This document shows, in pieces, positions 2,140 to 55,523 of a DNA stretch of 64,000 nt. The stretch is from assembly GCF_030658505.1 (NCBI RefSeq), contig NZ_JAUTXR010000180.1, forward strand, positions 124,001 through 188,000, written 5' to 3'. Made by a program: the position numbers and the translations under genes. A model generated the notes under the pieces. That model searched no databases, was not told the origin of the DNA, and worked only from the letters and a program-made list of their open reading frames with translations. Position 1 is the first letter of the stretch; each line of letters opens with the position of its first letter. Source of the stretch: Stenotrophomonas raiganjensis (SeqCode) (GTDB lineage: Bacteria; Pseudomonadota; Gammaproteobacteria; Xanthomonadales; Xanthomonadaceae).

Positions 2140-3300
2140 TCACCCTCGATCGCTGCGGATGTGCCTAAAGTCGCTCTTGTGCTTGTTGCGCCGGTACTTT
2201 TCACCGGTGATGAAGTAAACCAACGACTGCACCTGATCACTGTCTTCCCGGTCAAAGAAGCCAAGACCAACCAAGAGATCCACCAATTTTTCCCGATCGC
2301 CGCCGAGTCCTGGTTCCTTAGCACCACTCCAACGGCAGGCGGCATATAGGAGTTTTCTGAGCTTGTGATTGATGAAATCCTGATCGAGGAATGTATCCGC
2401 CGGAACCTCTACGGCTTCTTCGGGAAGATCAATCTCCCCAAGGCCCTCGGACGAATAGTTGTAGCCGGGGTTGGCGAGCGTCGCCGCGAACTCATGCCGA
2501 CCGTCGTTGAAAGGCTTGGGATTCTTCTTGTAGCCGGCATTCAACTCTCGAAATTCTGCCGCAAGCGATGGCGCATCGATCTCACTGCGCGCCCTCCCTC
2601 GATTTCGATAGGCTTTGCGGAGGATCTCGTATACCAATGACGACGAATCTTTCAGCCCATAGGGGTCATCCGGCGCATCTCCACAGGCTGGCACAAGCAC
2701 ATCCTTAGCAGTCGGCGTGCTTTCCAAGGCGTCACTAAGTGCGGGCACCTCAACGAAAACATCCTTGAAACTGACCCCGTGAAGAATGTACGAATACTGG
2801 CTTCTGATGCGATTCAACGTCTTCACGACCACAGGAGCACCCGAGCTGGCATCAAACTCGGTTGGCACCTTGTCGGCGATGGCCCGCTCGGTGGGCAAGA
2901 GGAAACCCAGCAAACCCTTTCGATACTTGAAATCGATTGAAGGAATGCCATCGTGCGTCAACGCGGATTCCAGACCTCCAGCACTGAATTGGTGCAATGC
3001 GATGGGGGGATATTCGAGAACGTCACGCAACTGCGATGTATCGAGCTGCAAATACCGTATCTGGGCCTGATTGCCATCAGCCCGCACGGGACCTTGGGTT
3101 GACTTCTGGGGCCACAGAAGCTGGTACCCAGGAGGAAAGGGGTCAATAGAGAGAAGGCTGACCCGAAATCCCTTCGGGACCTTGACGTAGAACCTGTCGT
3201 ATCCAGCCTCAAGGAGCCTGTGAACGAACTCAACAGGGTCGTTCCCGTCAAGCATGCTGGCTAAGGGCCGAACTCGAATGGCTGGCGATTCAGGCGTCAT
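2140..3300 (-). CDS. Hypothetical island protein, companion of the CSD-exonuclease gene
   Basis: A protein of 386 residues if it starts at ATG 3300; in-frame ATGs at 3312 and further upstream lie inside the integrase. I do not recognise a family. It is soluble with no membrane segment or signal peptide. The C-terminal third has a basic tail (GEKYRRNKHKSDFRH). The start overlaps the 3' end of the integrase by 11 bp and it lies 96 bp upstream of the exonuclease gene, so the two downstream genes may be translated from one transcript. Its function could be as cofactor of the exonuclease protein; that rests only on adjacency. Confidence 0.65.
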   Translation of the reverse strand: MTPESPAIRVRPLASMLDGNDPVEFVHRLLEAGYDRFYVKVPKGFRVSLLSIDPFPPGYQLLWPQKSTQGPVRADGNQAQIRYLQLDTSQLRDVLEYPPIALHQFSAGGLESALTHDGIPSIDFKYRKGLLGFLLPTERAIADKVPTEFDASSGAPVVVKTLNRIRSQYSYILHGVSFKDVFVEVPALSDALESTPTAKDVLVPACGDAPDDPYGLKDSSSLVYEILRKAYRNRGRARSEIDAPSLAAEFRELNAGYKKNPKPFNDGRHEFAATLANPGYNYSSEGLGEIDLPEEAVEVPADTFLDQDFINHKLRKLLYAACRWSGAKEPGLGGDREKLVDLLVGLGFFDREDSDQVQSLVYFITGEKYRRNKHKSDFRHIRSDRG

Positions 3301-4528
3301 GCGGCGAGGCATCCTTCTTGGGCTTCTTTGCAGGTGGGTGAACAAAGTCGGCCCAGGCCTGCATCATCGGACGACGTTGCTCCAAGAGATCTGTGCGGTG
3401 GTAGGCGGCCTCGACCTTGTCCTTGACCGTATGCGCCAACGCCCGCTCTGCCAGGTCACGGGCATAGCCTTGCTCGCTGCACCAGTCGCGGAAGCTCGAG
3501 CGGAACCCGTGGGCGGTCGCAATACGCCCAGGCGTGTCGCTCAGTGCGTTCGCTCTCCGCAACAAGGCTGTGAGCGTCATGTCCGACATGACCGAACGAG
3601 CCTGCACAGAGGGAAAGACAAGTTCGTCGTGATGGCCTTCCTGGCGCCTGAGCAGCTTGACGGACTGTTCCGACAATGGCACTCGATGAGGCTGTTTGGC
3701 CTTCATGCGAGCAGCAGGAATCGTCCACAGCTTCGCGCGAAGGTTCACTTCCGCCCACGTCATCCCGCGCACCTCGCCGGAACGACTGGCATTCAGGATC
3801 AGGAACAGCAAAGCATTTCGCGTGACTTCGTACTCGCCAGCTCCTGCAAGTTCTGCTTTCACGAACGATGGAAGCTTCGCCCAGGGCATTGCTGGCTGAT
3901 GCTCCTGCCGGACAGACTTTCCCGGCTGCAGCGGAAGCAGATGTGTTACGACATCGACCGGGTTGGCTTGGTTAAATCCGTGCGCCCAACCCCACGCCAT
4001 TACCGCGTGTAGCCGCTGCTTCACGCGACTTGCCGTCTCTGCCTTGTCGAGCCAGATGGGGCGGAGGACATCCGCAACGTGCCGCGGTTGCAACTGGTCG
4101 ATGGGAAGGGAGCCAATCCGTGGAAACGCGTACTCAGTCAGCGTATTAAGCCACTGCTGTGCGTGCTTGGGATTCTTCCACCCGGGCTTTAGTTCCGCGT
4201 GGAGTAGTTCCGCTGCTTCCTGAAACGTCGGTGTCTTCGGCTTAGCGTGGTCAGCCGCCTTAACCTCCAACGGATCCTGCCCACTCGCGATCTGCTCGCG
4301 CATTTCTCGCGCCAGTTTACCCACCAGAGCAATCCCAACTTCGGGGTAGGCACCCAAGCCGGCGTTGCGTCGCTTGCCCGTGGCAGGACTGACGTAGCGC
4401 AGCACCCACTTACCCTGCCCCTTCTGTGAGGGCGACGGATGCAGCGTCAGGCCAGTTATGCCTCCGTGCGGGACAGCCTGACCGCCAGGGCTCAGGCTGC
4501 GAGCCTTTGCATCCGTGATCAATCCCAT
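3290..4528 (-). CDS. P4-type tyrosine integrase of the left island
   Basis: A 412-residue tyrosine recombinase of the P4/prophage-integrase class. The N-terminal part (MGLITDAKARSL, then a YVSPATGKRR segment) is the DUF4102-like arm-binding domain. The catalytic residues are visible as R249 (ASRSGEVR), H340/R343 (HGFRSSF), H366 (ALAHT) and Y376 (AAYHR). The gene reads leftwards, away from the tRNA-Ser-like sequence at 4705-4718, which is about 180 bp from its start. This fits an integrase sitting at the right end of an island that extends out of the window. GGAAGGAC lies directly upstream of the start codon. The 3' end overlaps the next gene. Confidence 0.93.
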   Translation of the reverse strand: MGLITDAKARSLSPGGQAVPHGGITGLTLHPSPSQKGQGKWVLRYVSPATGKRRNAGLGAYPEVGIALVGKLAREMREQIASGQDPLEVKAADHAKPKTPTFQEAAELLHAELKPGWKNPKHAQQWLNTLTEYAFPRIGSLPIDQLQPRHVADVLRPIWLDKAETASRVKQRLHAVMAWGWAHGFNQANPVDVVTHLLPLQPGKSVRQEHQPAMPWAKLPSFVKAELAGAGEYEVTRNALLFLILNASRSGEVRGMTWAEVNLRAKLWTIPAARMKAKQPHRVPLSEQSVKLLRRQEGHHDELVFPSVQARSVMSDMTLTALLRRANALSDTPGRIATAHGFRSSFRDWCSEQGYARDLAERALAHTVKDKVEAAYHRTDLLEQRRPMMQAWADFVHPPAKKPKKDASPHDA

Positions 4529-4704
4529 GTCCTTCCTCGGCCCCCCTGTTTCCGGTATGCCATCGAGTATGCCATTTGATGTTTGCTTCCTTTAAGTGTC
4601 GTTGGGGTCGATTGGTACGCAGCTGTAGCTAAGTTGCTGAACCGCGTGCTAAAATTTTCAAAGGTTGAGATCGGCTGGGCCCCGTTGGGCATCGCCCGAG
4701 CAGT

Positions 4705-4718
4705 CCCTCTCTCCGCCA
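4705..4718 (+). repeat. Putative attachment site, tRNA-Ser 3' end copy (left end of mobilizable element)
   Basis: CCCTCTCTCCGCCA, which matches the 3' acceptor end of tRNA-Ser including CCA. It is identical over 14 bp to 22168-22181 in the same orientation. No partner GGAGAG acceptor strand lies upstream, so it is not an intact tRNA. It sits between two divergent integrase genes, as expected for a junction between two tandem integrations. Confidence 0.65.
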
Positions 4719-4728
4719 GATTACGCAA

Positions 4729-4752
4729 GCCCCTGTTTACGCAGGGGTTTTT
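4729..4752 (+). terminator. Rho-independent terminator after the tRNA-Ser remnant
   Basis: CCCCTG and CAGGGG pair around a TTTACG loop and are followed by TTTTTG. Position directly after the tRNA-Ser-like 3' end suggests it was carried along as the terminator of a tRNA-Ser gene. Confidence 0.7.
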
Positions 4753-4804
4753 GCTTTTCTGGATTGACTGCTGGGAAAGACGCAAGCCGGGACACATCGC
4801 CCCT

Positions 4805-6337
4805 ATGCGCATCCCCCATCATCTGGTTCGAGCCCGCTCGGGTCTCTGGTCATTCCGGCAACGGGTTCCCACGGACCTTCAGGCCCTCATCGGCAAACGC
4901 ATCCTGAAGCGCACGCTGCGCACCTTCGAGCTGTCCGTGGCCCAAATGCGCGCCCTGACACTGGCCGCACGTTATGCTCAGGCCTTCAGCGTGTTGAGGG
5001 AACGACGCATGGGAACCCAGGACGAGGACGTCGAGACGCTTCTTGCGCGCCTCACCAGCTCCGACAGCCTCCAGCAGCTGACGTTGAACCGAACGCGCAC
5101 CGCCGACGGTGTCGTCACCGAGCACTGGCAGATCCACTCTCCGGAGGACGTGAAGCTTTATCAGCAGATCATGGAACTGTCTGCCTCACGGCCCAGCGAA
5201 CTTGGGGAGCTGATTCGTCAGGGCGTCCCGCCGATGCCGGAGGCGCGCCGGGTGACCAAGCCCGCCATTGAGACCATCACCTTGGGCAAGGCCAAGGAGG
5301 CGTGGCTGGCGAGCATCAAGGGCAGCACCCTGCCAAAGACTTGGACCATCAAACGAACGGCGGTAGAGCTGCTGACTCGCTTCCTGGGCGAGAAGGCCAA
5401 ACTCCATACGCTCACTCGGTCCGACCTGGCCCGGTGGTATCAGCGCATGAGGGACGAAGGAGCATCCACCCCCACCCTGACCAACAAGCAAAGCTATGTA
5501 GGCGGGAAAGGAGGATTTTTCGAGTGGGCGATCGCCTCGGGCCATTACCCGAAGGGCGACAACCCGGCCTCCGGGCATGTGAGCTACTCAACGCGGGAGA
5601 AGCGGGCCCGGCGCAAGTTCGGCTTCAAGGCTTATGACACCCATCAAGTCCAGGCCCTGTTTGCGCCGGCGGCCTTCGAGGCCCTGCCCCTGCCCGCTCG
5701 CTGGGCGGCCCTGTTGGGGCTCTACACGGGGGCTCGAGCCTCCGAAGTCGGGCAGTTGATGGTCAGCAACATCTCGGAAGAAAGCGGAGTGCCTTGCATC
5801 CATATCACCGACGAAGGCGAACATCAGCGGGTGAAAACCGACGTAAGCGTCCGCACCGTGCCCGTCCACCCCGACTTGGCGGCGCTGGGCTTCCTCGAGT
5901 GGGTCGAGAGCATGCGGGCCGAGGGCCATACTCGCTTATTCCCTGGAGCCAAGGCCGAGGCCAAGAACGGCCAAGGGAACTGGGTGTCAAAGGCCTTCAG
6001 CCGCTACTTGGCCGAGGTGGGCAAGAACTGGCCTACCGCCAAGCGAGGCTTCCACTCCCTGCGGAAAACCCTGATTCAGGAGCTCCAGGGCCTGGGGGTA
6101 GTTTCCGAGCTGCGGGCGCAGATCGTGGGACACGAGCTGGACGACGAGCACCATGCTACTTACAGCCGCGACTTCACGGTCAAAGAGAAGTTGGAAGGAC
6201 TGGGAGCCCACTCCCCCGGCCTTCGGACGCTGACCTACGGGCTCAACCTCCAACCCTTGCGTCCGCTGGTGCACCCGGCCCTTCTGCCCGCCGGCAGCCT
6301 TCCCACGAACCGCCGCAAAGCAAGGAGCAACGCGTGA
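4805..6337 (+). CDS. Tyrosine integrase of the mobilizable element
   Basis: 510 residues from ATG 4805, chosen because MRIPHHLVRARSGLWSFRQR is the usual start of DUF6538-type phage integrases; the longer frame upstream would run through the att repeat and terminator. Catalytic pattern: R near residue 310 (YTGARASEVG), HSLRK near 415, GHELDD and a tyrosine (ATYSRD) near 451. The gene starts 86 bp inside the left att-like repeat. Its stop codon overlaps the GTG start of the NYN gene, so these two are one operon. It is unrelated in sequence type to the integrase at 3290-4528, supporting two independent elements. Confidence 0.93.
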   Translation: MRIPHHLVRARSGLWSFRQRVPTDLQALIGKRILKRTLRTFELSVAQMRALTLAARYAQAFSVLRERRMGTQDEDVETLLARLTSSDSLQQLTLNRTRTADGVVTEHWQIHSPEDVKLYQQIMELSASRPSELGELIRQGVPPMPEARRVTKPAIETITLGKAKEAWLASIKGSTLPKTWTIKRTAVELLTRFLGEKAKLHTLTRSDLARWYQRMRDEGASTPTLTNKQSYVGGKGGFFEWAIASGHYPKGDNPASGHVSYSTREKRARRKFGFKAYDTHQVQALFAPAAFEALPLPARWAALLGLYTGARASEVGQLMVSNISEESGVPCIHITDEGEHQRVKTDVSVRTVPVHPDLAALGFLEWVESMRAEGHTRLFPGAKAEAKNGQGNWVSKAFSRYLAEVGKNWPTAKRGFHSLRKTLIQELQGLGVVSELRAQIVGHELDDEHHATYSRDFTVKEKLEGLGAHSPGLRTLTYGLNLQPLRPLVHPALLPAGSLPTNRRKARSNA

Positions 6338-7128
6338 GCATCCATCCGATCGACACACGGGTCGCTGTCCTTCTAGATTGCGACAACGTTCCACCCGAAA
6401 TCGTGGACCATGCCCTCCTCATGGCCGCTCAGTTCGGGCGGGTTGTCGTCCGCCGCGGCTACGGCAACCACTCCACGCTGGCCAAGCGCTGGCAGGAGAC
6501 CTTGGTCCGACAAGCCTTCACCCCATGTCTCCAATACCAATACGCGGCAGGGAAAAACACCGCTGACATGGCACTGGCTTTGGACGCATTAGAGGCAATG
6601 TTCGATCAGAGGGCTGACACGTTTTGCTTGGTCACGAGCGACTCGGATTTCGCTTACCTGTGCCGAAAGCTCCGAGAGCGAGGAGCGACGGTCTGCATCG
6701 TGGGGGAGGAAAAAACGCCTGAGGCATTGCGCAATGCCTGCGACCAGTTCTTCGAGTGGAAGCCTTCGGAACAGAAACCCGAAGCGGAGGAGCAGGCCTC
6801 GGGCTTGAAAGGACAGGCACAAGGAAAGACCGAAACTTCCAAGCCACTGCCCAAGCGACGCCCCCGTTTCTTGGTCGATGCAGTGGCCCTTCTCGCCGAC
6901 GGCAGCACAGATGGAAGGGTCATCGTCAGCGCGCTTGGCAACTATCTAAAGCGCACCGATCCCTCGTTCTCGCCAAACGCTTATGGGCACTCCGGCCTGC
7001 TTAACATGGTCAAGACTTATGACCTGCTCGTTGCTTCGCAAGCGCCGGGAGGCCACTGGCTGGTCAAGCTCGCACCGGAACCGAGCTCGGCGATGCAGGC
7101 ATCAATAGCGGTAGCGTCCGACGCCTAA
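6334..7128 (+). CDS. NYN-domain / OST-HTH (LOTUS) protein, predicted RNA nuclease
   Basis: 264 residues. The GTG start at 6334 has AAGGAG at 6322-6327 and overlaps the integrase stop (GTGA), which implies translational coupling. Residues about 8-120 are a NYN/PIN-like nuclease domain with conserved acidic positions D15/D17 (LLDCDN), D78 (NTADMAL) and D103/D105 (TSDSDF). A charged linker (130-170) leads to an OST-HTH/LOTUS-like module at about 176-255 (PRFLVDAVALLADG to GGHWLVKL), which in this family binds RNA. The role here is unknown; coupling to an integrase suggests element maintenance, control of host RNA, or defence. The longer in-frame extension upstream overlaps the integrase and was rejected. 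Confidence 0.88.
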   Translation: MSIHPIDTRVAVLLDCDNVPPEIVDHALLMAAQFGRVVVRRGYGNHSTLAKRWQETLVRQAFTPCLQYQYAAGKNTADMALALDALEAMFDQRADTFCLVTSDSDFAYLCRKLRERGATVCIVGEEKTPEALRNACDQFFEWKPSEQKPEAEEQASGLKGQAQGKTETSKPLPKRRPRFLVDAVALLADGSTDGRVIVSALGNYLKRTDPSFSPNAYGHSGLLNMVKTYDLLVASQAPGGHWLVKLAPEPSSAMQASIAVASDA

Positions 7129-7573
7129 GGCGAAGAATCCAGATAGAAAAACTGTGACGCATTGCATCATGGCGCGCTTGCGCATTCCCACCTGAGTGGT
7201 TCGATGTGAAGACCATTCACTACACGACTGACCAATGCCCGCAAACGTGGAACTCCGTATCGCCAGCCAACTCCTTCAAGTCTTGGTGCCTCAAAACAAC
7301 ACCCGAGACGCCGCTGAGCGTGAGGTAGATGTCCAGCACGCGCTGGATATCGCAAAAATACTCCTGCGCCGCTTCGCCGCTTCCCCCCAAGGCCAAGCCA
7401 GCCAGTCTGTTACCCACTCGCCACAGAGCAGCAGTGCATCCCGAGCCGCACAGGTGGACCGCACCCAAGTGCCACAATCCTTCCCCTCTCCCGACGCTTG
7501 GCGGGCATCTCGGGGACTTCCGCCAGTGAAGCCACTTCCGAGTCGAACACCATTGATGGGACCTGGACCCCGT
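7129..7573. other. Non-coding or unassigned stretch between NYN gene and relaxase
   Basis: About 445 bp with no supported gene. Short open frames exist on both strands (7235-7576 plus, 7220-7477 minus), but neither has a ribosome binding site or a recognisable product. Confidence 0.5.
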
Positions 7574-7605
7574 TGAACAACAGCCCCGCGTTCGCGGGGC
7601 TTGTT
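7574..7605 (-). terminator. Terminator downstream of the relaxase gene
   Basis: GCCCCGCG-AA-CGCGGGGC hairpin at 7583-7600, flanked on both sides by A/T-rich AACAA/TTGTT. It lies 11 bp past the relaxase stop codon on the minus strand. Confidence 0.8.
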
Positions 7606-7615
7606 CTATGCAGGG

Positions 7616-9157
7616 TCAGTGGAACTTGGGCGCCCGGGGGACAGGCGGAACGGGAAGCAACGTGCGCGGGGCCACCGGTTGGTCATCAGCAGGCTGTGGA
7701 GCAACAGCCTCCGAGGGGTGGGGCAAGCCAGCGAGGAGCTCGGCTTTCGTTAGGATTTCAGCATCGATGGCGCTCAACTCTCTCTCCGACGCCCGCTCCT
7801 GAGCAGACTTTAACTCGGCCGCCCGCTTCTCCAGCACCGAAAGCCGCCGCCCTCGGCGCTGGGTCCACTCCGGCCGGGAGTAGCCGGAGGAGCCTAGCGG
7901 GTAGTCTGAGTTGAACCTTTCCCACTCTTGTTCGGCCATGTGATGCAGCCTAGCCGCACTCTTTAGATTCAGCAGCCTGCGGGCCTTCCCCACAATCAGA
8001 CACTTCAGAGCACGAACTTGGAGCACTGCCGTGGTGATCCACTGACGGAGATCGGTGGCTTCCCCCTGGAGAGCCAGCTGCTGCCGCACCCATTCCAAGG
8101 AAGAGCGGAACTTGTCCATGGCCAGGTCTGCCCTCGCCCTGGAAATCTCATCCACGTCGCGCAGCGCGTCCGCAATCCTCTCGGCAAGGCTGACGCGTGG
8201 ATGCGGCTCGGGAAGCCCATGAGACGAAAGGAGCACGTGCTGCAGCCGCACCCCAGAGACGCCTCGCATCTCCAGCCCCGATGGAAGCCCGGCCGTATCG
8301 CTGTTGAGCACGCGCCCACGACGCGGCCCAGGCTCCTGGTCTGGAGCTGGCACGGGCTTGCCCTCCAGCCCGGCTTTGAGCATCAGGAGATCGTAGTGTC
8401 CCTGATTGTCTTCGGCGATCTGGTCGTTAGTGCTCCCCCTGTGGGTCGCCACGCCTTTTCCGGCCAAGGCAGTCGCATGCTTGCCTAGATGCTGAGTCGG
8501 TTCGCGGGAAAGCGCCACCGCCGCCAAATCATCCCCTCGCTCCATCGCCGACCGGGCCTGTTCGGCCAGACTGCGGTGGTCGATGGTGTTCGTAAGGCCA
8601 GCCGCCTCCAAGTGGGCGTTCGTCGTCGCAGCGACCATCTCGCGGATCCACTGCACTTCCACTTTGCCAGACGGCCCAACGTCCAACTCCCTGGTTTTTT
8701 CGCCAAACCCCTCTGAACCAATGCGACGCGTGGTCGCCAAGATATGGACATGGTGGTTGAGGCCGTCGGGCGTCCCAGGAGAGTGGATGCTGGCTTGGAC
8801 AGCGAATCCGTAACGTCCGACCAACGCGTCGGCGAGCACGAATGCCAGATGGGCGCGCTGCTCTTCAGACAACTCGTGGGGCAAGGAGACCTCGAACTCC
8901 CTGGCCACGGTCGAGTCTTTCCTTCGCTCCGCAGCCTCCGCGACCGCCCAGAGCTCGCGGGGATCCAAGGCCCACTCGGGAGCGTCAGGCGGTGCAAGGC
9001 AGAAGCTTTCGACGACACCGCTGCGGCGGCGGTAGTCGTGCTGCTGCCCAGTGAGCACGTCGGCGAGCAGCAGGCCGCCACGGTAGGCGGCGGCAGCGAC
9101 GGCGGACTGCCCCCGGCTGCGGCTGAAGGTTTTGATAGAGGTGTGGAAGATGGCCAT
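7616..9157 (-). CDS. mobA: MobA/MobL family (MobQ) relaxase
   Basis: A 513-residue conjugative relaxase that would nick oriT and lead the element into a recipient. The N-terminus (MAIFHTSIKTFSRSRGQSAV) is typical of MobQ relaxases. Y25 in AAAAYRGG is at the position of the nucleophilic tyrosine of RSF1010 MobA. The metal-binding HHVHI motif is at residues 135-139. The C-terminal half is helical and charged and probably binds accessory proteins; no primase domain is obvious. The start at 9157 has AGGA 7 nt upstream, and the start codon lies inside a near-perfect palindrome (9155-9188). No mating-pore genes are present, so transfer would need a helper conjugation system. Confidence 0.93.
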   Translation of the reverse strand: MAIFHTSIKTFSRSRGQSAVAAAAYRGGLLLADVLTGQQHDYRRRSGVVESFCLAPPDAPEWALDPRELWAVAEAAERRKDSTVAREFEVSLPHELSEEQRAHLAFVLADALVGRYGFAVQASIHSPGTPDGLNHHVHILATTRRIGSEGFGEKTRELDVGPSGKVEVQWIREMVAATTNAHLEAAGLTNTIDHRSLAEQARSAMERGDDLAAVALSREPTQHLGKHATALAGKGVATHRGSTNDQIAEDNQGHYDLLMLKAGLEGKPVPAPDQEPGPRRGRVLNSDTAGLPSGLEMRGVSGVRLQHVLLSSHGLPEPHPRVSLAERIADALRDVDEISRARADLAMDKFRSSLEWVRQQLALQGEATDLRQWITTAVLQVRALKCLIVGKARRLLNLKSAARLHHMAEQEWERFNSDYPLGSSGYSRPEWTQRRGRRLSVLEKRAAELKSAQERASERELSAIDAEILTKAELLAGLPHPSEAVAPQPADDQPVAPRTLLPVPPVPRAPKFH

Positions 9158-9188
9158 AAAGATTCCTGTGAAAACAGGATTCTTTATG
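9155..9188. promoter_or_regulatory. Palindrome covering the relaxase start codon and ribosome binding site
   Basis: Arms of 15 nt (9155-9169 and 9174-9188) with one mismatch around a GAAA centre. The minus-strand ATG of mobA is in the left arm and its AGGA in the right half. It could be an operator for MobA autoregulation or an mRNA hairpin that hides the start. Confidence 0.6.
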
Positions 9189-9255
9189 GACCAGCTTTTG
9201 CCGTTGGCAAGCCTCGGAGAGGCTTGGGGTTCCAGGGGCGGAGCCCTTGGCGCAC

Positions 9256-9285
9256 GCGTTCCGAAGGAACGCCTAAGTGCGCTCT
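9256..9285. other. oriT: oriT of RSF1010/MobQ type
   Basis: A 7-bp inverted repeat GCGTTCC-GAA-GGAACGC (9256-9272) is followed by CTAAGTGCGCTCT (9273-9285). The layout, hairpin then TAAGTGCG-CYCT, is that of RSF1010-family origins of transfer, where nicking occurs in the TAAGTGCG/C region. It lies about 100 bp upstream of the relaxase gene. A second small hairpin (AAGCCTCGGAGAGGCTT, about 9210-9226) is adjacent. The rest of 9189-9659 has no supported gene. Confidence 0.8.
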
Positions 9286-9659
9286 TGCCTTACCGCAATG
9301 CATGTCAAGATCGCAGCGGGAAAGCGCTCTTTACCGCGCAGGCCACCTTGGCCTGGACGCGCTCCAGAAGAGCCCAAAGCAAATCCAAATGACACGGCCA
9401 GCAAAGTGAATAGCTCGCGTAGGTTCCTGACAAAGAGCTACGTGAATCTACCCGGTGCCTCGCTACGTCAAGGTCTCTTCCTCAAGCCGCCCATAGACAC
9501 GCGTGAGACCTCTCTCCCTGGCGGACACTCAACAAGACCCCTTGCGATTTCTCAAACCGCCTGTAATTTGGTACCAAAATACTTGCATCCGCATCCATTC
9601 GTTCAGGCCTAGTTCAGCTTTACGTGATTAGGACGGCACATCGACAATCAGAGACATCA

Positions 9660-10796
9660 ATGAAAGTAAAAGTAGTTAAAGAGAAACCTGACGTGAAAGC
9701 CGCCAGCAATCACACACTAGGTCAAGCGAAGTCAGCTAAGCAGGATGAGTTCTATACTCAACTTGATGACATCGAAAAAGAGCTTAAGAACTACAAGCCC
9801 CAGCTTCACGGCAAGACCGTGTTCTGCAACTGCGACGACCCGTTTGAGAGCAACTTCTTCAAGTATTTTGCACTGAACTTCAATATCCTCGGCTTGAAGA
9901 AGCTGATTGCGACAAGCTATTCAAAGTCTCCGATCACGGGCAAGCAGCTTCCACTGCTGGACATCGAGGGATTGAAACCTGAAGGCAAAGATCCCTATGC
10001 AGTGATTATCAGTGAGGTCCCGGACCACAGAAATCGTGGCGCAACAGACATCACCGATGTAGAGTATCTTCTAAAGCGTAAAGCAAATGTTGCTCATACC
10101 TTGGTCGGGGACGAAAACTACGCAGCCGGAGATTTTCGCAGCAGCGAGTGCGTTGCGTTGTTGAAAGAGGCGGATGTAGTAATAACAAATCCGCCATTCT
10201 CGTTGTTCCGCCAGTTTGTGTCTCAACTTGTTGAACACAAGAAAAAATACTTGATTATTGGCAATGTGAATGCGATCACATACAAGGAAATTTTCGATCT
10301 CATTCAAAAGGATGAGCTATGGCTTGGTAAGAGTATCCATAGCGGGGACCGAGAGTTCCGCGTCCCCGATCATTACCCACTCGAGGCCGCTGGCACCCGC
10401 GTGGATCAAGACGGAAGGAAGTACATCCGCGTAAAAGGAGTTCGATGGTTCACTAACATGGACTTCGAGAGCCGACACGAAGATATTCCGCTGTATAAGA
10501 GATATTCATCCAAGGAGTATCCAAAGTATTACAACTACGATGCAATCGATGTAAGCAAAACTGCCGAGATACCTTGCGACTATGATGGCCCCATGGGGGT
10601 TCCCATAACCTTCTTGGATAAGTACAACCCGACGCAGTTTGAGATTCTTGGATCCAGCCGCACGCTTGGCACTCCAATGTCGCAACTCGCCGAAAAAGGA
10701 TCATATTCACCAGGCGGCCCTCGGTTTTATCTTCCCGAAGCCAAAGGGAAGTTCCGAAGAATGTATGATCGGCTTGTAATCAAAAGAAGGACCTAA
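9660..10796 (+). CDS. EcoRI-type adenine-specific DNA methyltransferase
   Basis: 378 residues from ATG 9660. The family hallmarks of the EcoRI methylase group are present: DEFYTQ at 29-34 followed by DDIEKEL, the FCNCDDPFESNFFKYF block at 55-70, and the catalytic NPPF at 177-180 (ADVVITNPPF). It would transfer a methyl group from SAM to adenine in a specific site and so mark the host DNA. Its TAA overlaps the ATG of the next gene, so the two are translationally coupled. The DNA is visibly more AT-rich than the relaxase gene beside it, which suggests separate acquisition. The target sequence cannot be predicted. Confidence 0.9.
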   Translation: MKVKVVKEKPDVKAASNHTLGQAKSAKQDEFYTQLDDIEKELKNYKPQLHGKTVFCNCDDPFESNFFKYFALNFNILGLKKLIATSYSKSPITGKQLPLLDIEGLKPEGKDPYAVIISEVPDHRNRGATDITDVEYLLKRKANVAHTLVGDENYAAGDFRSSECVALLKEADVVITNPPFSLFRQFVSQLVEHKKKYLIIGNVNAITYKEIFDLIQKDELWLGKSIHSGDREFRVPDHYPLEAAGTRVDQDGRKYIRVKGVRWFTNMDFESRHEDIPLYKRYSSKEYPKYYNYDAIDVSKTAEIPCDYDGPMGVPITFLDKYNPTQFEILGSSRTLGTPMSQLAEKGSYSPGGPRFYLPEAKGKFRRMYDRLVIKRRT

Positions 10797-11902
10797 TGAA
10801 GATAAAGCTTACGAACATTCCAGTCTCCGAACTCACTAAAGGGTATAAGGACAATGCTGAACTTGGCGTGCGTGGGTATGATGGGAAGCTAAACATCCGC
10901 CCTGCTTACCAGCGCGAGTTCATCTATAACGAGAAGCAGCGCAACGAAGTCATTAAGACCGTGATGCGAGGCTTCCCGCTCAACACGATGTATTGGGCGG
11001 CTGCTGACGATGGCTACGAACTAATGGATGGACAGCAGCGGACCATAAGTATCTGCCAATATGTTCACGGCGATTTTTCCGTTGTAGTCGACGGCAACCC
11101 AATGTCTTTCGGAAACCTAACCTCCGATAAGAAGAAAAATATTCTAGATTACGAGCTCTCCATTTATATCTGTGAAGGATCAGATAGCGACAAGCTGGAT
11201 TGGTTCAAAACAATCAATATCGCCGGAGAGAAGCTAACGCAACAAGAACTTCGGAATGCCATATATTCGGGACCATGGCTCACAGATGCTAAACGCTGGT
11301 TCTCGAAGAGTGCGGCGCCAGCCGTCCAAGAGGGCCGAGAAAAGCTCGTAAAAGGCTCTCCTATTCGACAAGAAATACTCGAGACCGCACTAGACTGGCG
11401 CTCAGAAGGCGACATCGAAACTTACATGAGCACCTATCAGCACCAAAAAGATGCTCAAGATTTATGGCAATACTGGCAGTCGGTATTCGCATGGGTTAAA
11501 CGCATATTCCCTAATCAGGAAAGCGCACGAGCCCGCCTCATGAAGGGACTTCCGTGGGGATATTTCTACAATGCCCATAAAGATGAGACATTTAATGCGC
11601 AGGATCTCGAAGAACGGATTTCCGCTCTAATCGAGGATGATGAAGTTGATAACAAGAAGGGTATTTACGAGTATCTCCTGACCGGGCAAGAAAGGACGTT
11701 AAGCCTACGAGCTTTCGATGAAAAAACCAGACAGAAGAAGTATGCGGAACAGCAAGGCAAGTGCCCCGTCTGCAATAAGCAGTTCTCAATAGAGGAAATG
11801 GAGGCCGACCACATCCTCCCATGGCACAGCGGCGGAAAAACGAATATCGACAACTGCCAGTTGCTTTGCAAGAAAGACAACCGGACTAAGAGCGGCAAGT
11901 AG
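10796..11902 (+). CDS. DUF262 plus HNH nuclease protein, probable restriction partner
   Basis: 368 residues; AGAAGG lies about 6 nt before the ATG, which overlaps the methyltransferase stop (TAATG). The N-terminal DUF262/ParB-like domain shows RPAYQREFIYNEKQR near 37-51 and the DGQQR motif near 78-82; in GmrSD-type enzymes this region hydrolyses nucleotides and controls cleavage. The C-terminal HNH fold (about 323-365) has CPVC, ADHILPW and a final CK.DN element, the usual metal-binding and catalytic pattern. Coupled to an EcoRI-type methyltransferase it probably acts as the cutting partner of a restriction-modification-like system. It shares the AT-rich composition of its partner. Confidence 0.88.
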   Translation: MKIKLTNIPVSELTKGYKDNAELGVRGYDGKLNIRPAYQREFIYNEKQRNEVIKTVMRGFPLNTMYWAAADDGYELMDGQQRTISICQYVHGDFSVVVDGNPMSFGNLTSDKKKNILDYELSIYICEGSDSDKLDWFKTINIAGEKLTQQELRNAIYSGPWLTDAKRWFSKSAAPAVQEGREKLVKGSPIRQEILETALDWRSEGDIETYMSTYQHQKDAQDLWQYWQSVFAWVKRIFPNQESARARLMKGLPWGYFYNAHKDETFNAQDLEERISALIEDDEVDNKKGIYEYLLTGQERTLSLRAFDEKTRQKKYAEQQGKCPVCNKQFSIEEMEADHILPWHSGGKTNIDNCQLLCKKDNRTKSGK

Positions 11903-11910
11903 AAGATACT

Positions 11911-11937
11911 GCCTTGGATGGGCGAACCATCCAAGGC
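11911..11937. terminator. Hairpin between convergent genes
   Basis: GCCTTGGATGG-GCGAA-CCATCCAAGGC, an 11-bp perfect stem 8 bp after the DUF262-HNH stop and 28 bp before the end of the minus-strand operon. It has no clear T-run, so termination is probable rather than proven. Confidence 0.6.
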
Positions 11938-11965
11938 CTCCGATAGTTCGTGCGGGCCACGGACT

Positions 11966-12487
11966 TTACTTTGCGCATCCCAGCAGTTGAGGGATCCGCA
12001 TCATCCACCCCGACTCCGAATAATCGGCAGACGCCCTGAGAGTGCTGCCACCCTGGCGAACCGTCAAGGAAGCCAGCTCTTCTTGGGACTGGAAAAAGAA
12101 CGGCCCATCTACGCCCATCACGAAGTGGTCCCCTTGAAGGGCGTTACAGTGAGAACAATGGTTGGCCCAATAGTTGACGCCGGCAGTCTGCGACCGTCCG
12201 ATGCGCAGGAGTGGCGCAGACTGGACGACAAACGTCTCCACGAAGGCGTCCAAGGACTCGACATATTGCAGGACGGCAGCATCGGCAATCTCCAGTTCGC
12301 CTTCCTCATCGAACTCTGTGAGGCGGGGGACCCAGATGGCAGTGACTAGGGTAGGTAAACCACATTTCCAACAACCCATGGGAGCTTGGAGCAAAGCAAA
12401 GCTAGGCGCTTTAAGATTGAAGTCAGTCACGACCTGAATCCAGATAGTCTCCACGGTCCCAAGATCGGTAGCGCCAAGGAAGGACAT
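11966..12487 (-). CDS. Hypothetical protein with two CxxC pairs
   Basis: 173 residues if the ATG at 12487 is used, which overlaps the upstream gene by 65 bp; a GTG near 12429 would give a tighter overlap. Two CxxC pairs, GCWKCG near residue 38-43 and NHCSHCNALQGD near 108-119, suggest one zinc site. No signal peptide or membrane segment. It is the last gene of the minus-strand operon that contains the Shedu-like nuclease. Function unknown; a small zinc-binding accessory protein is the most that can be said. Confidence 0.65.
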   Translation of the reverse strand: MSFLGATDLGTVETIWIQVVTDFNLKAPSFALLQAPMGCWKCGLPTLVTAIWVPRLTEFDEEGELEIADAAVLQYVESLDAFVETFVVQSAPLLRIGRSQTAGVNYWANHCSHCNALQGDHFVMGVDGPFFFQSQEELASLTVRQGGSTLRASADYSESGWMMRIPQLLGCAK

Positions 12488-12884
12488 CCTCCAAGGCCGT
12501 TATCCGCGGCTCTGGCATCAGTGATAACGCACGCGTGCCCAAAAGCAAGCGATCCACGCGGTCGTTGGGAACGAACAGCCATGGCTGAACCGTCCAATCG
12601 GCGGGTATACCACAATCCCTCGCCAGCGCCTCCTTCAAGGCAAGCCAGTGCTGATCCCAGCTTTTCAGGCGGCCCAAGAGCGCAGGCAGGCGGGCCGCAT
12701 AAGAGATTTCGCAAAGGTAGGCCGCTCGGTCCCGGACGCTCACAGCGACCGCGTCGCAATACCAGTGAGGCCCACTTGTATCAGGATTGCTCCCAGGGTT
12801 CAGCTGGATGCAACACTGTGCATTGATGAACAACCTTCGGTCTGCCCGCAGGAAGTCCAGCACTACGCCCTCAAAATGATCCAC
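12423..12884 (-). CDS. Hypothetical protein of the defence operon
   Basis: About 153 residues. The start is uncertain: GTG at 12884 has GGAGG 4 nt upstream, while a TTG at 12932 would add 16 residues. The core (HWYCDAVAVSVRDRAAYLCE, then LKSWDQHWLALKEAL) reads like a real folded protein, with alternating strand and helix and a PWLFVPND segment. No family recognised. It lies between the 76-residue protein and the CxxC protein on the same strand. Confidence 0.6.
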   Translation of the reverse strand: MDHFEGVVLDFLRADRRLFINAQCCIQLNPGSNPDTSGPHWYCDAVAVSVRDRAAYLCEISYAARLPALLGRLKSWDQHWLALKEALARDCGIPADWTVQPWLFVPNDRVDRLLLGTRALSLMPEPRITALEDVLPWRYRSWDRGDYLDSGRD

Positions 12885-12986
12885 CACCCCTCCTACCCCA
12901 AGCGACCTTGACAGCAATCTCTTGCGACGCAAACGCAGTGAACTGTATTGGACGCCGACGGCAGACCACTTCGCTCTTTGAGCGGG

Positions 12987-13217
12987 CTAGGGCCTCCGCT
13001 GGACCACAAAGACCAGTCCGGCACTCTTCAGCCTGCGCCGCAGCTCCTCCACCTCTTCAAGACTAGGCTTGTTAGCGAACTCCAAGCGAATATCAGCGTC
13101 CTCAAGCCCTGGAATGGTCAAGTATTCCTCGAACGCGATGTATGGGGTCGTGCCCGACTCGGGATTCCCCTCGCACACCTTTAAGTGGGGCGGATCCTTG
13201 TGCACTGAAACGCTCAT
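12987..13217 (-). CDS. Small hypothetical protein
   Basis: 76 residues with a good GGAGG 7 nt before ATG 13217. It is 51 bp downstream of the Shedu-like gene on the same strand. Acidic centre (YLTIPGLEDADIRLEF) and a helix (SLEEVEELRRRLKSA). Size and position would suit a regulator or partner of the nuclease, but no family is recognised. Confidence 0.65.
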   Translation of the reverse strand: MSVSVHKDPPHLKVCEGNPESGTTPYIAFEEYLTIPGLEDADIRLEFANKPSLEEVEELRRRLKSAGLVFVVQRRP

Positions 13218-13268
13218 CTAAACCTCCATCGTGAGGGGGTTGGAAATCTCTTTATACCTTGGCAAGGC

Positions 13269-14342
13269 CTACCAGGGAATGTCGTCGTCAAGTTCGACGA
13301 TGTTGACCGACGCGGCCTCGGGCCCCGCTGCGGGGGACAACATTTCCAACAACCGCTCCCCTTGCGCCAGTAGATGGTCATAGGTCATGACGGTGATACC
13401 GTTCATCCGCCGATTGAGCCCATGGAGCGCGCGTTGCCGCTCATCGCTCCAGTCATGGGAGCGACCAATAACGATCGTGGCACGCGGGTGATAGGCCACG
13501 ACCTCCTTGTGGTCCTGCAGTCCTTTGTCAGCAAACTCGTAAAGCATGTCTAGGTATCGGTGGCATTGACCGATGGCTTTCGATACCTCGGCGGAAAAAT
13601 AGTGGTTCTTGTGGGCCTTGTCATACAGAAGCACCTCCATGTCGGGCCGCTTCAGCTCAACGATATCTCGATAGCCCGCAATGACGTTAGGCAACATCAG
13701 ATCAATGTTGTCCCCAGTGGTGATTGCACGCACCTCGTCCCGGACCACGTAAGCATTGCCGAAGGCCCAGCAGTGTTTCTCGCACCATGACTGGTAGACC
13801 TGCTCAGCCGACTCCCCGCGCCCCAGGCTGGAACGCAGCTCAGCAACTGCGGAGCGCATCTCACTAAGACGAATAGATCCCCGGAGCGCGGTGGTCAGCT
13901 CATGAGTCAGCTCCGTGTTGGCCAGATGCTGGACCAAATCCGAATGAGAAAGCACTTTGGTCAGCGCGCCAACCAGGGACTGGGGATCGTGTCCGGTAAG
14001 ATCGGCGGCCCCGTTCGCCACCTTGATCAGGATGAACTCACCAGCCTCTGGCTGATCGGTCAACGGAAGATGAGTCTGAAGGTATTTGAAGAGCTTGAGC
14101 GTGGACACCTCGGTCAGATTGATGGTCTTTTCCCTGTCCTCTACCCAAGATGCCCCCTTCGTCTTTGTGAAGCCCTCGAGCTTGACCTTGAACCCGGTGT
14201 GGTCGCTGTGAGGGATCAAGAATCCCAAGATGTGAAGCTTCGTCTTCGACGTCTCGTTGAGCACGACGACGGGGACGTAGTCCAGCTTACCGCTGCTCGC
14301 CGTCTTCCTAACAACCTTGGTGAGTTCCTCAGTCCCGCTCAT
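13269..14342 (-). CDS. Shedu-like defence nuclease (DUF4263)
   Basis: 357 residues from ATG 14342, chosen for the AAGGGG about 8 nt upstream. Residues 1-160 form a variable N-terminal domain. Residues about 185-300 match the DUF4263 core of Shedu SduA: W187 to W192 region (SWCEKHCWAFGNAY), D214 (NIDLML), and E229-L-K231 (IVELKRP), which is a D...ExK nuclease site of the PD-(D/E)xK fold, then the SKAIGQCHRYL helix. Shedu proteins are single-protein anti-phage systems whose N-terminal domain senses the trigger. The gene is 34 bp downstream of the UDG-like gene, so they probably share a transcript. Confidence 0.8.
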   Translation of the reverse strand: MSGTEELTKVVRKTASSGKLDYVPVVVLNETSKTKLHILGFLIPHSDHTGFKVKLEGFTKTKGASWVEDREKTINLTEVSTLKLFKYLQTHLPLTDQPEAGEFILIKVANGAADLTGHDPQSLVGALTKVLSHSDLVQHLANTELTHELTTALRGSIRLSEMRSAVAELRSSLGRGESAEQVYQSWCEKHCWAFGNAYVVRDEVRAITTGDNIDLMLPNVIAGYRDIVELKRPDMEVLLYDKAHKNHYFSAEVSKAIGQCHRYLDMLYEFADKGLQDHKEVVAYHPRATIVIGRSHDWSDERQRALHGLNRRMNGITVMTYDHLLAQGERLLEMLSPAAGPEAASVNIVELDDDIPW

Positions 14343-14376
14343 TGAACAACCCCTTGCCCACTGTGCTCCGATGTTC

Positions 14377-15111
14377 TCAGCTCTCTTTCGCAAGCGCCAC
14401 AAGGTGACCCAACGCTCCCGCGCGATCCTGCCACGTGTCTATGTTCCATGATGGATGGTAGACCCACGTCATCAGCGCGGAGCCTCCCCGGTAATCGAGC
14501 GACCAGATTTCACGGGACTCAATGTAGCGCCGCTTTCGCTCCCCTCGTTTCACATCCTTGGCTGAGAAGGGCTCCAACCCCGGCTGGGACTTACCATGAC
14601 TGAAGAGTCGCCAAGCTGTCCGGCCCAGAACAAGCACGACGTTAGGCTTCAGCACCGGCAGGATTTCCTCCCACAGAACATCGCCACCGTCGCGAAGAGC
14701 CTGATTCCGCGGCCGATGACTTGCCTGCGAACCCGCGAACGCCTGGGAAAGGTTCAAGAATGCCACGCGCCTCCACGCTTCGGCGGCTTCCTGGAGTTGG
14801 AAGTCCTGTCGACCAGTGAGGACCAGGTCGAGCGCCCTAAAGAAGGGGCCGTCCCGGCCGCTCCGGATCGGGGTGGCCATCTCGCGGAAATGATCTTGAG
14901 TGAACGGTCGGGTCACTTCGAGCGAATCGCTCAGCCCCTCTCGCCTGTAGTGCGACTCGCCCAGTAAGAGCACCCGTTGACCGTTTACCCCCTCCCAGTA
15001 AAGGTCACCCCAATACGGTATGAAACGGACTGCCTCGGGCCATTGGTAGCCGTCTAGCGCCGGGCCGGCTGAACTAGTCGAGCCCTGCGCTACTGGACTA
15101 TTCCCTGTCAT
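14377..15111 (-). CDS. Uracil-DNA glycosylase superfamily-like protein
   Basis: 244 residues from ATG 15111 (GGAGCGAAG directly before it). The fold pattern of the UDG superfamily is visible: a first motif LLLGESHYR at 48-56 in the position of the water-activating loop, VAFLNLSQAF near 116-125, VVLVLGRTAWRLF near 158-170, and a late VYHPSW near 217-222 as the HPS minor-groove loop. The first motif lacks the usual GxDPY/GEAPG, so the substrate may differ from uracil. It precedes the Shedu-like gene by 34 bp. It could be a base-excising or base-sensing defence component, or a house-keeping relative carried as cargo. Confidence 0.7.
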   Translation of the reverse strand: MTGNSPVAQGSTSSAGPALDGYQWPEAVRFIPYWGDLYWEGVNGQRVLLLGESHYRREGLSDSLEVTRPFTQDHFREMATPIRSGRDGPFFRALDLVLTGRQDFQLQEAAEAWRRVAFLNLSQAFAGSQASHRPRNQALRDGGDVLWEEILPVLKPNVVLVLGRTAWRLFSHGKSQPGLEPFSAKDVKRGERKRRYIESREIWSLDYRGGSALMTWVYHPSWNIDTWQDRAGALGHLVALAKES

Positions 15112-15172
15112 CTTCGCTCCTTGGGAAAACACCTCAAAGAGGCCGGCACCGCGCGGCACCGGCCAATGAAAA

Positions 15173-15319
15173 CTACTTCTTGGTCTTCTTGCCCTTGTCG
15201 GGGGCTTGGCTCAGGGCAGAGCCTGCCGCCGTCTTGGACTTGCTGCCGGTTCGATCGTCACGCAAAACACCACTCGCGGCCTTCGCCGCTTTCGGGCTCG
15301 TCTGCTCGTTCTTTGCCAT
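15173..15319 (-). CDS. 48-residue basic conserved peptide
   Basis: Begins MAKNEQTSPKAAKAAS and ends KGKKTKK; about a quarter lysine, otherwise alanine, serine and threonine. AAGGAGAG lies 6 nt before the ATG at 15319. Peptides with this MAKNEQTS start and SKxAAGSALSQ middle recur in proteobacterial mobile DNA as far as I remember the family. It is probably unstructured and may bind nucleic acid. It heads the minus-strand operon that includes the UDG-like and Shedu-like genes. Confidence 0.8.
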   Translation of the reverse strand: MAKNEQTSPKAAKAASGVLRDDRTGSKSKTAAGSALSQAPDKGKKTKK

Positions 15320-15672
15320 GCCGTCTCTCCTTACCACCACGTGGTGGCAGCCAAAGCATATTCAAAGCAGCAATAAACCCTAACAAGAACGCCGGGCCAT
15401 TTATCAACCATTCATACTTTAAAATGGATTTGTTAGCTTACTTAAGTTAAACAGTACCAAAATGACTCCAGAGTTTTCCCAGAACGCCGATTCCAAGCCC
15501 TTGTTTTAAATGAGAAAACTAAGGAAATGCTGCTCGGTACAAATCAGACGCTTCGCTGAGCAGGGCTTGGCCCGCCGCAACGCTTACGGCATTCAGATTA
15601 AGCGCGGTTTTGTATTGACCATTTTAGGACCTGTTTTATTGGTACTTCCATCGTTCCGATGGAAGCCAAGCA
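15320..15672. other. AT-rich intergenic region between defence operon and third integrase
   Basis: About 350 bp, much richer in A and T than its flanks (for example 15361-15520). It must hold the promoter for the minus-strand operon. No gene is supported; stop codons at 15616 and 15625 close the integrase frame upstream. Confidence 0.5.
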
Positions 15673-17064
15673 ATGCCCTCCCCCGCTTTAGAACACCTCC
15701 ACCAATACCTACTCCACCCCATGGGCACTCTCCAGCTCAAGGGCGTTCAGATGGGCAACCTTCGTATCGAAGAGTTGAACATCACAGGACGCGAAGCGGC
15801 CATCCACGCCCAGGAGATGTTGGACCGAGCCGATGACCGCCAGCGCCGCAGTCGTCGGGCCAATGGATGCACTCAGTATCCCGCCCCGCTGCCCATCGCC
15901 TCCGCCCCTCGCCTGCTGTCTGTCGAGATCGCCGACTACGTGAGGTCCAGAGACGACCGCAATCTAGCCAAGGACACAACCGGATCTACGCTCCGCACCC
16001 TCAACTTGCTTAAGATGACCTGCGGCGACATCCCCGTTTCACGCATCGACCATGCCCACATTTATCGTCTGTGGGAGTTGCTGCGGTGGGCTCCCCCGAT
16101 GCTTCTCTCCGACCCCAAGTATCGCGACTACACGTATGACCAGGCCATCGCGCTGGGCAAGGAGCTTGCCGTTCCTCCTCTGGCCCCCAAGACACTTGAA
16201 AAGCATCGACGCTTTCTCTCGACGTTTTTCAAAGGCCTAGTGGAAGCCAACGCGATCCCAGCGTCCCCCATGGCCGGCTTCAAGAAGTTCAAAGACGATC
16301 TGGCGGTAGACGCGGACAAGGCAGAGCGCCTGTTCGACGAAGCTGACCTGCAGAAGATCTTTGCCCCTGAGAACTTTATTCCCTGGGCGAAGGCCCATCC
16401 CCATCGCTGGTGGATGCCCATGCTTGGCCTCTACACCGGGGCGAGGATCAACGAGGTTGCGCAACTGAAAGTGGCCGACATCGTGCAGGACGCCGGCGTC
16501 TGGTGGATACGCATCAGGGTCACGATCGACCCAGACCTGGCACACAAGAGTCGAGGAAGAAGTCGCCAACGCCTAAAAGGCAAGTCGGCCATCCGGGATG
16601 TGCCTATCGCGCAGCCGCTCATCGACGCCGGCTTCCTAGACTACGTCGAAGACATTCGTCAGTGCGGACACCCGCGCCTGTTCCCCCACCTTTCAGCCGG
16701 CGTGAACCGTGAGACAGGGGACTCGAACGCACGTTACAGCCAAGCCGCGCTCAACCAGTTCAGCACTTACATGAAACGCTTGGGCTTCAAAAAAGGCGTC
16801 GGTTTCCACGCGTTCCGCCATACGCTAGCCACCGAGCTTCACCACCAGGACATCCCAGACGAGGTCATTGCCCTCATCACTGGTCACTCAGCTAACAAAA
16901 GGGTCGCTGTCCTGCACGAGGCGTATTTCCACAAGAAACCGGCATACGCCCAAAAGAAGAAAATTCGCACCATCAAGCGTTACCAGCTGAGCGTCGAACT
17001 GCCTAAGTATCAGCGGGGCCAGTTCGCTGATCAGCTGTCGGATCCTAGCAAGTTCTACCCATGA
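15673..17064 (+). CDS. Third tyrosine integrase
   Basis: 463 residues from ATG 15673 (GGAAG 8 nt upstream); ATG 15724 or 15751 would be shorter alternatives. Catalytic residues: R near 257 (YTGARINEVAQ), HAFRHT near 377, GHSANK and a tyrosine (EAYFHKK) near 417. The N-terminus is shorter than that of the integrase at 4805 and lacks an obvious DUF6538 start, so the arm-binding domain may be lost. It ends 100 bp before a degenerate tRNA-end-plus-terminator sequence (17145-17187). It may come from an older element that has been absorbed. Confidence 0.88.
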   Translation: MPSPALEHLHQYLLHPMGTLQLKGVQMGNLRIEELNITGREAAIHAQEMLDRADDRQRRSRRANGCTQYPAPLPIASAPRLLSVEIADYVRSRDDRNLAKDTTGSTLRTLNLLKMTCGDIPVSRIDHAHIYRLWELLRWAPPMLLSDPKYRDYTYDQAIALGKELAVPPLAPKTLEKHRRFLSTFFKGLVEANAIPASPMAGFKKFKDDLAVDADKAERLFDEADLQKIFAPENFIPWAKAHPHRWWMPMLGLYTGARINEVAQLKVADIVQDAGVWWIRIRVTIDPDLAHKSRGRSRQRLKGKSAIRDVPIAQPLIDAGFLDYVEDIRQCGHPRLFPHLSAGVNRETGDSNARYSQAALNQFSTYMKRLGFKKGVGFHAFRHTLATELHHQDIPDEVIALITGHSANKRVAVLHEAYFHKKPAYAQKKKIRTIKRYQLSVELPKYQRGQFADQLSDPSKFYP

Positions 17065-54795: not shown

Positions 54796-54880
<85 letters not shown>

Positions 54881-54990
54881 GTGGCCGGCACAGGCCTTCA
54901 TTGTCGCAGGCAGGGACTGGAAGCGGAAGACCTGCACAAAGCTGAATCTGCTGTCCCGGGCGACCGGCAGCCGCCCGGGACAGCCCTGGA

Positions 54991-55296
54991 TCAGTACTGC
55001 CGGGGTGCGGCGGGCGCTGCCTCAGCCCCCTCACCGCCCGCTGCGTCCACGTTGCGGATCTCGATGCCGCCGCCGTCGGTCCGGCGCAGCTGCACCGCTT
55101 CAGGCTGGGCCACGCCTTCCGCCGGCGCCGTGGGCTGCATCTGCATCGCCTCACCAACCGGACGTGCGGGAACGTGCTGCGCGTCGGCGTCGCGCTGCAC
55201 GGTCTGCGCCGGGTCACCGGGCGGGCTGCAGGCAGCGAGCGCCAGCAGCGCGAGCGGAGCCAGCCCTCTTGGAACCCATCGATTGAATTCACCCAT
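54991..55296 (-). CDS. Small Ala/Pro-rich lipoprotein
   Basis: 101 residues. Signal peptide with lipobox LAAC near 20-23 (LALLALAACSPPG). The mature part is low-complexity with many Ala, Glu, Gln and Pro. No family recognised. Confidence 0.7.
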   Translation of the reverse strand: MGEFNRWVPRGLAPLALLALAACSPPGDPAQTVQRDADAQHVPARPVGEAMQMQPTAPAEGVAQPEAVQLRRTDGGGIEIRNVDAAGGEGAEAAPAAPRQY

Positions 55297-55494: not shown

Positions 55495-55523
55495 GCTCCG
55501 CGCCCGCAGCCCGTCGCGCAGGC

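Follow-up and report, generated by a model that had tools for sequence, protein, structure and literature searches.

A DUF262–HNH nuclease that may take its targets from an EcoRI-type methyltransferase with exchangeable putative recognition segments

When a methyltransferase of the EcoRI type stands directly before a nuclease of a quite different kind, which of the two decides what DNA is cut? The question is raised by a pair of genes in a 64,000-nucleotide stretch of Stenotrophomonas raiganjensis DNA (hereafter the window), which we call M, for the methyltransferase, and R, for the nuclease. Both open reading frames are intact, and they overlap by the shared A of a TAATG. The features referred to below are as follows.

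9660–10796, + strand: M, EcoRI-type adenine-N6 DNA methyltransferase gene, ATG to TAA, 378 amino acids
10188–10199, + strand: NPPF motif of M, residues 177–180, read from the sequence and invariant in a 60-sequence alignment; we take it to be catalytic motif IV
10314–10445, + strand: cassette A of M, about residues 219–262, variable; presumably a target-recognition segment
10650–10793, + strand: cassette B of M, about residues 331–378, hypervariable; presumably a target-recognition segment
10794–10798, + strand: TAATG stop–start overlap coupling M and R, read from the sequence
10796–11902, + strand: R, DUF262 (ParB-like NTPase) and HNH nuclease gene, ATG to TAG, 368 amino acids
10808–11227, + strand: DUF262/ParB-like fold of R, residues 5–144
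11027–11041, + strand: DGQQR of R, residues 78–82, motif intact
11762–11893, + strand: HNH nuclease motif of R, residues 323–366

M matches the EcoRI_methylase family (PF13651) with 460.1 bits against a cut-off of 26.4. R matches GmrSD_N/DUF262 (PF03235) with 68.5 bits (cut-off 33.2) over residues 34–157 and HNH (PF01844) with 48.4 bits over residues 323–366, and its HNH residues D338, H339, N353 and N362 are all intact. R also matched the HNH family PF14279 and did not match DUF1524; at E ≤0.01 DUF262 and HNH were its only families, with no SF2 helicase domain. The AF2 model of R has a pLDDT of 90.9, and the folds nearest to its N-terminal domain are those of BrxU and SspE. Sequence searches of solved structures returned no relative of M at E ≤1 and, for R, weak matches to the C-terminal part, mostly HNH nucleases. 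At least 8000 homologues were found for each protein, the closest named ones among the matches listed being Stenotrophomonas maltophilia proteins 97–98% identical to M and R.

The first-pass annotation had described two overlapping genes, beginning at 9660, that are AT-rich unlike their neighbours and that combine an EcoRI-type methylase with a DUF262–HNH protein, and the details agree: position 9660 is the ATG of M (a longer, mechanically called frame begins with GTG at 9624), and the GC content is 47.2% for M and 48.1% for R, as compared with 63.5% for the window and 57–65% for six measured neighbour genes. Its proposal of a non-classical two-gene restriction-modification module needs dividing. 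The module itself is supported, but the pair is neither rare nor unrecorded: besides the thousands of R homologues, a PADLOC REase_II model named 'Type II restriction enzyme' (PDLC03418) spans residues 1–368 of R with 438.9 bits. The pairing itself is therefore not new; the M–R pair is widespread and already known to annotation libraries.

The pair lies in a mobile-element setting (window 3290–17064). Three phage-type integrase genes are found there, at 3290–4528 (−), 4583–6337 (+) and 15673–17064 (+), together with a MobA/MobL relaxase gene (7616–9157, −) and an open reading frame with NYN and LOTUS domains (5794–7128, +). The Shedu defence gene sduA (13269–14402, −; PADLOC PDLC00402, 587.6 bits; Pfam SduA_C) is close by, overlapped by a gene for a uracil-DNA-glycosylase-superfamily protein (14377–15159, −; 27.3 bits) that may belong to the same defence unit. 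No phosphorothioation genes were present among the ten window frames scanned. Six tRNA genes (Leu, Lys, Lys, His, Arg and Pro) are clustered at 54796–56433 (−), away from the pair.

How closely is R tied to M elsewhere? We examined the genome loci of the best 80 of 391 R relatives and 34 viral loci, also picked by R. M lies upstream of R on the same strand in 75 of the 80 genome loci, and in 62 of these 75 the stop of M is at most 20 bases from the start of R; it is upstream in all 34 viral loci, cut or broken in some. M is in the same record for all 43 plasmid records with at least 80% of R covered (three by annotation only, and many of the 43 near-identical), with the two genes standing apart in an Enterococcus dispar plasmid record. 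Of 398 genomes from the phylum, four hold R, and these are also the four with an M above the PF13651 cut-off, the two genes being adjacent; a fifth has an M match below the cut-off and no R.

Five genome loci have R without an M match. In four of them (L035, L048, L054 and L072) R starts 2–199 bases from a contig end, and in the fifth (L066) 2.3 kb of sequence upstream of R lacks M. A whole-genome search placed an M at some other site for L066 and for L072; for L035, L048 and L054 it found none in the contigs of at least 3 kb. In three other loci (L014, L021 and L023) M and R stand 2.2–3.0 kb apart, with other sequence intervening; M is split in L021, and the only M near the R of L014, 3 kb upstream, is truncated, with a complete M on another contig of that genome. 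By eye, two restriction-endonuclease-like (Mrr-like) genes, at 2955–3866 and 4948–5970, lie between the truncated M and the intact R of L014. Frameshifted M genes stand beside an open R in L030 and L036. No solo R was clearly seen at the genome and viral loci, and, as judged by these comparisons, the pairing of R with M appears to be near-obligate in the samples. The scores and this conserved pairing together exclude chance as the origin of the M and R matches.

Approached from M, the sampling gives a complementary picture. The first-pass annotation had counted a methyltransferase found mostly without a DUF262–HNH neighbour as evidence against its idea, and this was not borne out: when viral loci are chosen by M (the best 80 of 333 viral relatives), R is present in 57 of the 80; it is present in all four genomes with M above the cut-off, and in plasmids it accompanies M in about half of cases (80 records with M, against 43 with a near-complete R and 18 with an EcoRI REase). 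The other 23 viral loci have neither R nor an EcoRI REase, and 19 of them extend at least 2 kb downstream. Ten neighbours of lone viral M genes were scanned: five encode other DNA methylases, one has no assigned family, and the remainder are DNA ligase, ribonucleotide reductase, phage portal and poly(A) polymerase, which fits phage-borne orphan methylases. A DNA search of E. coli, with a reach of about 65–70% identity, matched one of 5426 genomes, and the M–R pair is there (L129).

Some plasmid records show other arrangements. On a Lactiplantibacillus plasmid (L126, 2180–4282) an EcoRI-type M is contained in a 700-residue frame annotated as a cytosine-5 methylase and followed by two hypothetical genes. 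A Psychrobacter plasmid record without a near-complete R (L127, 1997–3244) has an M whose cassette A resembles that of the window; next to it are genes for a hypothetical protein and for a member of the PLD family. Another methylase is annotated beside the REase in one of the EcoRI REase records (L142).

The relation between M and R becomes more informative when the two sequences are followed separately. For this comparison 18 loci were skipped and the E. coli locus was added, giving 101 pairs, and removal of L119–L121, identical to L118, left 98 for cassette typing. Clustering at 0.5 and 0.6 identity divided cassette A into 18–24 types and cassette B into 52–68, in 73–83 A/B combinations, with little mutual correlation between the two. 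The A type of the window's M recurs in 13–15 of the 97 other loci, and its B type in at most one (L020). Over 5038 comparisons with R less than 95% identical, the identity of R correlated with that of the M core (r = 0.68), less with that of A (r = 0.35) and hardly with that of B (r = 0.09).

Near-identical nucleases illustrate this directly. R reaches 85% identity in 61 comparisons, which draw on 32 loci and are not independent of one another. B falls below 45% identity in 56 of them and A below 50% in 16, and both cassettes reach 60% in only four; M is 0.62–0.93 identical up to residue 328 and 0.15–0.29 over residues 329–370. One pair of loci (L057/L061) has 97% identity in R and 87% in the core, with 35% in A and 28% in B; another (L064/L098) has 99% in R, 75% in the core, 61% in A and 13% in B. 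The differences in R are scattered and few (11 and 4, respectively). The same B also occurs with a different A in 23 comparisons (for example L113/L115, with B 97%, A 35%, core 81% and R 82% identical), which points to exchange and not to fast drift alone. One virus contig (L092) even carries two complete M genes, differing in both A and B, with a single R. In L063 the interval between M and R contains a second copy of the M 3' end (5781–6001), which has another cassette B and is a possible donor for recombination; since stops intervene and the second cassette is beyond the reach of slippage, it was not counted as a switch. Because similarity to R governed the choice of loci, the conservation of R is inflated, and an overall figure of 62% conservation for R versus 53% for M (69 of 79 loci with both, leaving out five partial and five split M genes) is biased by that selection and was not used.

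Does the cassette variability belong to the methylase family as such? Classic EcoRI systems, which use the same family, serve as a control. In five plasmid pairs (L125, L128, L139, L140 and L141, giving ten comparisons) mean identity is 0.66 for R, 0.65 for the core, 0.75 for A and 0.61 for B, the B mean being lowered by the extended C terminus of the L141 M, and the L139 M possibly being cut by the record end. Over a matching range of core identity, 2867 comparisons of DUF262 pairs average only 0.38 in A and 0.22 in B. The EcoRI cassettes are kept and those of the DUF262–HNH pairs are not; cassette variability therefore goes with the partner nuclease. EcoRI REase was not detected in the viral contigs, and a search for it in phages gave one partial match. 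In the Rhodococcus plasmid of this set (L141), a DUF262-domain gene is annotated at 5197–5822, just 3' of the classic EcoRI pair.

Taken with their position after NPPF and their variability, this control suggests that A and B are probably recognition segments. M thus appears to vary its recognition parts while R stays constant, which suggests that R takes its targets from M.

At several loci the ending of M can itself be switched. A repeat in M opens, according to frame, onto three complete endings in L013, L038, L046, L051, L064 and L079, and onto complete endings in two of the three frames in L034. Five of these loci, all Clostridia by title (L034 Hominisplanchenecus, L038 Oscillospiraceae, L046 Eubacterium, L051 Oscillibacter and L079 Lachnospiraceae), carry an (AG)n tract of 6–28 units within cassette B, and each alternative ending closes with a similar Y/F-x-R strand. 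Differences within the (AG)n family, counted for each ending by codon position in its own frame, were 22/20/77 (five sequences), 3/0/10 (two) and 46/12/138 (five), mostly at position 3, so that endings out of the current frame look selected as protein. The unit count modulo 3 matches the frame read, with 18, 21, 9 and 6 units leading to ending 1 and 28 to ending 3. The same three-ending design recurs at unrelated loci with other repeats: G15 in L013 and GACA ×14 in L064 (Catenisphaera DSM 25799). Arrangements like those of ON/OFF switches, with an open R, occur in three further loci: L007 and L011 have repeats at the 5' end of M, and in L070 the reading frame of M is lost at a G12 tract.

Such repeats lie in M or the M–R gap at 11 of 113 loci against 5.5 expected (P ~0.02), a modest enrichment in which the five (AG)n loci, being related, are not independent, and in none of the 113 R genes against 5.2 expected (P ~0.006), both expectations being drawn from the flanks (29 repeats in 690 kb). 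The window's own M has no slippable repeat. Many of the loci are metagenome assemblies, so the frameshifts here and the fusions below may be errors.

Searching with a joined M–R sequence recovered two clean M–R fusions, namely an in-frame M, DUF262 and HNH protein of 717 residues (P0241) and an N-terminally short in-frame one of 535 residues (P0243). P0242 and P0248 were discounted as fusions because they contain frameshifted stretches. In P0245, P0282, P0291 and P0302 M is joined, at four different junctions, to the C-terminal HNH of R without DUF262; these may be deletion products or a simpler enzyme. Tandem M–M proteins also occur (P0244, and P0246 with three PF13651 stretches).

We read the pair as a restriction-modification system in which all sequence specificity would reside in M and R would follow it, a reading to which, on comparative sequence evidence, we give a probability of about 55%. 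If B sets the target, a switch in M would leave a fixed-site R attacking its own chromosome, which argues that R is no fixed-site endonuclease. R is best read as lacking a site of its own and depending on M, which would either guide it, in the way that Mod guides Res, or write the methyl mark that R reads, in the manner of SspE. M would bind its site through the two exchangeable segments and methylate adenine in self DNA; on meeting an unmodified foreign site, it would engage R through contact with its conserved core, and the engaged DUF262/ParB-like NTPase and HNH nuclease would nick or cut the DNA. The roles of A and B as target setters, the M–R contact, the use of NTP, cleavage and phage defence are all steps that we infer. 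Contact with the core is favoured because R keeps to one M family despite freely swapped cassettes, and because R tracks the core and not the cassettes and is fused to M in two proteins. Control by NTP through DUF262 is a candidate for how self DNA survives a change of specificity. The idea of a methylase-guided nuclease, raised in the first-pass annotation, gains comparative support from the cassettes, the EcoRI control and the frame switches. That an EcoRI-type M with two exchanged cassettes, in some loci switchable among three endings, directs a constant NTPase and HNH nuclease is a more specific proposal, which we put forward tentatively and at slightly under even odds. If it is true, restriction specificity would change in one step with methylation, leaving the nuclease unaltered.

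The alternative that survives best is a nuclease of the SspE/DndI kind, in which DUF262 senses N6-methyladenine in any sequence context, the mark controls the NTPase and nickase so that unmarked DNA is attacked, and M is only the writer, its exact site irrelevant. Such a nuclease would be indifferent to cassettes and would tolerate M being OFF, as in L070. The N-terminal domain of R is nearest to the BrxU and SspE folds, and in the sections of PMC11662687 on these enzymes SspE and DndI are DUF262–HNH nucleases under a DNA backbone mark, SspE being silent without it. Reading in any context fits the data almost as well as guidance by M, but the same sections have the SspE and DndI marks read in a fixed sequence context. 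Moreover, any adenine methylase should then do, yet every partner found was PF13651, and the two M–R fusions point to contact. On balance we consider this explanation rather unlikely.

A conventional Type II system, in which R would be an independent sequence-specific endonuclease with the same target as M, could explain the full-length PADLOC Type II label, the adjacent and coupled genes and the lack of a clearly seen solo R. It sits poorly with near-identical R proteins beside unrelated M cassettes, with two M genes to one R in L092 and with three-frame M endings, and EcoRI systems show the opposite pattern; it is improbable, and the cassette evidence led us to reject a fixed-site R as the main reading. 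Least probable of all is a toxin-like R, a non-specific DNase silenced by M (as protein or through its mark) and freed when a phage disables M, which would suit the tight coupling, the near-obligate pairing and the indifference of R to M specificity but is weakened by L070, L030 and L036, where M is broken and R open (which such a poison would not permit if the assemblies are right and R is active), and by the ON/OFF repeats of L007 and L011, which would be lethal.

If a nuclease that follows M is the right reading, many loci now labelled Type II would have to be understood differently, a large DUF262–HNH subfamily would acquire a role, restriction would be re-targetable by exchange of the methylase, and a three-frame phase switch would join the known ways to vary DNA methylation.

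How does the pair compare with known systems? It shares its methylase family (PF13651) with the EcoRI system, but there the partner is an upstream EcoRI-family REase of the PD-(D/E)XK type (order R–M) and the M cassettes are conserved along with it, whereas here the partner is DUF262–HNH, the order is M–R and the cassettes are not conserved. As in Type II systems generally, a dedicated methylase gene is paired with a nuclease gene. In Type III systems the restriction subunit Res is helicase-type and depends on the methylase Mod. Mod also resembles M as a phase-variable methylase with a swappable recognition domain (PMC3311624), but R is a 368-residue ParB-like NTPase and HNH protein, and M is EcoRI-type with two cassettes and three-frame endings. 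Ordinary two-protein Type II enzymes recognise DNA separately, and the Type IIG enzymes share one specificity module, so that both activities change together and diversify widely (PMC4081073).

Among the Type IV enzymes, GmrSD and BrxU, like R, combine a DGQQR-bearing DUF262 fold with an HNH-type nuclease at the C terminus (PMC12707154 and PMC4619093), but that C-terminal domain is DUF1524, where R has PF01844 HNH, and BrxU has 580 residues (7p9k) to the 368 of R. Type IV enzymes cut modified DNA and need no methylase partner, whereas R is accompanied by M. Machnicka et al. describe Type I elements as the most frequent in GmrSD neighbourhoods, and the word EcoRI is absent from the excerpted text of that study (PMC4619093). 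The M–R pair is likewise not described in the DUF262 passages of PMC4978471, PMC7230728, PMC8713573 and PMC3710099, and among the open-access papers searched we met no account of how the pair works, of the cassette exchange or of the three-frame endings. SspE and DndI, as presented in those sections of PMC11662687, also tie a DUF262 and HNH nuclease to a DNA-marking partner; their mark is phosphorothioate, whereas here it would be methylation by a single PF13651 gene whose cassettes are freely swapped.

The closest precedents that we found for the switching itself are the phase-variable Mod domains (PMC3311624) and the Type I system NgoAV (PMC6789123). NgoAV, too, owes a change in the specificity of its DNA methylation complex to a slippable repeat (a G tract), but that repeat truncates or extends the specificity subunit, whereas M has up to three endings, one for each frame. 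Set beside all of these, the pair looks like a separate and widespread solution, with a small DUF262–HNH nuclease following an EcoRI-type methylase.
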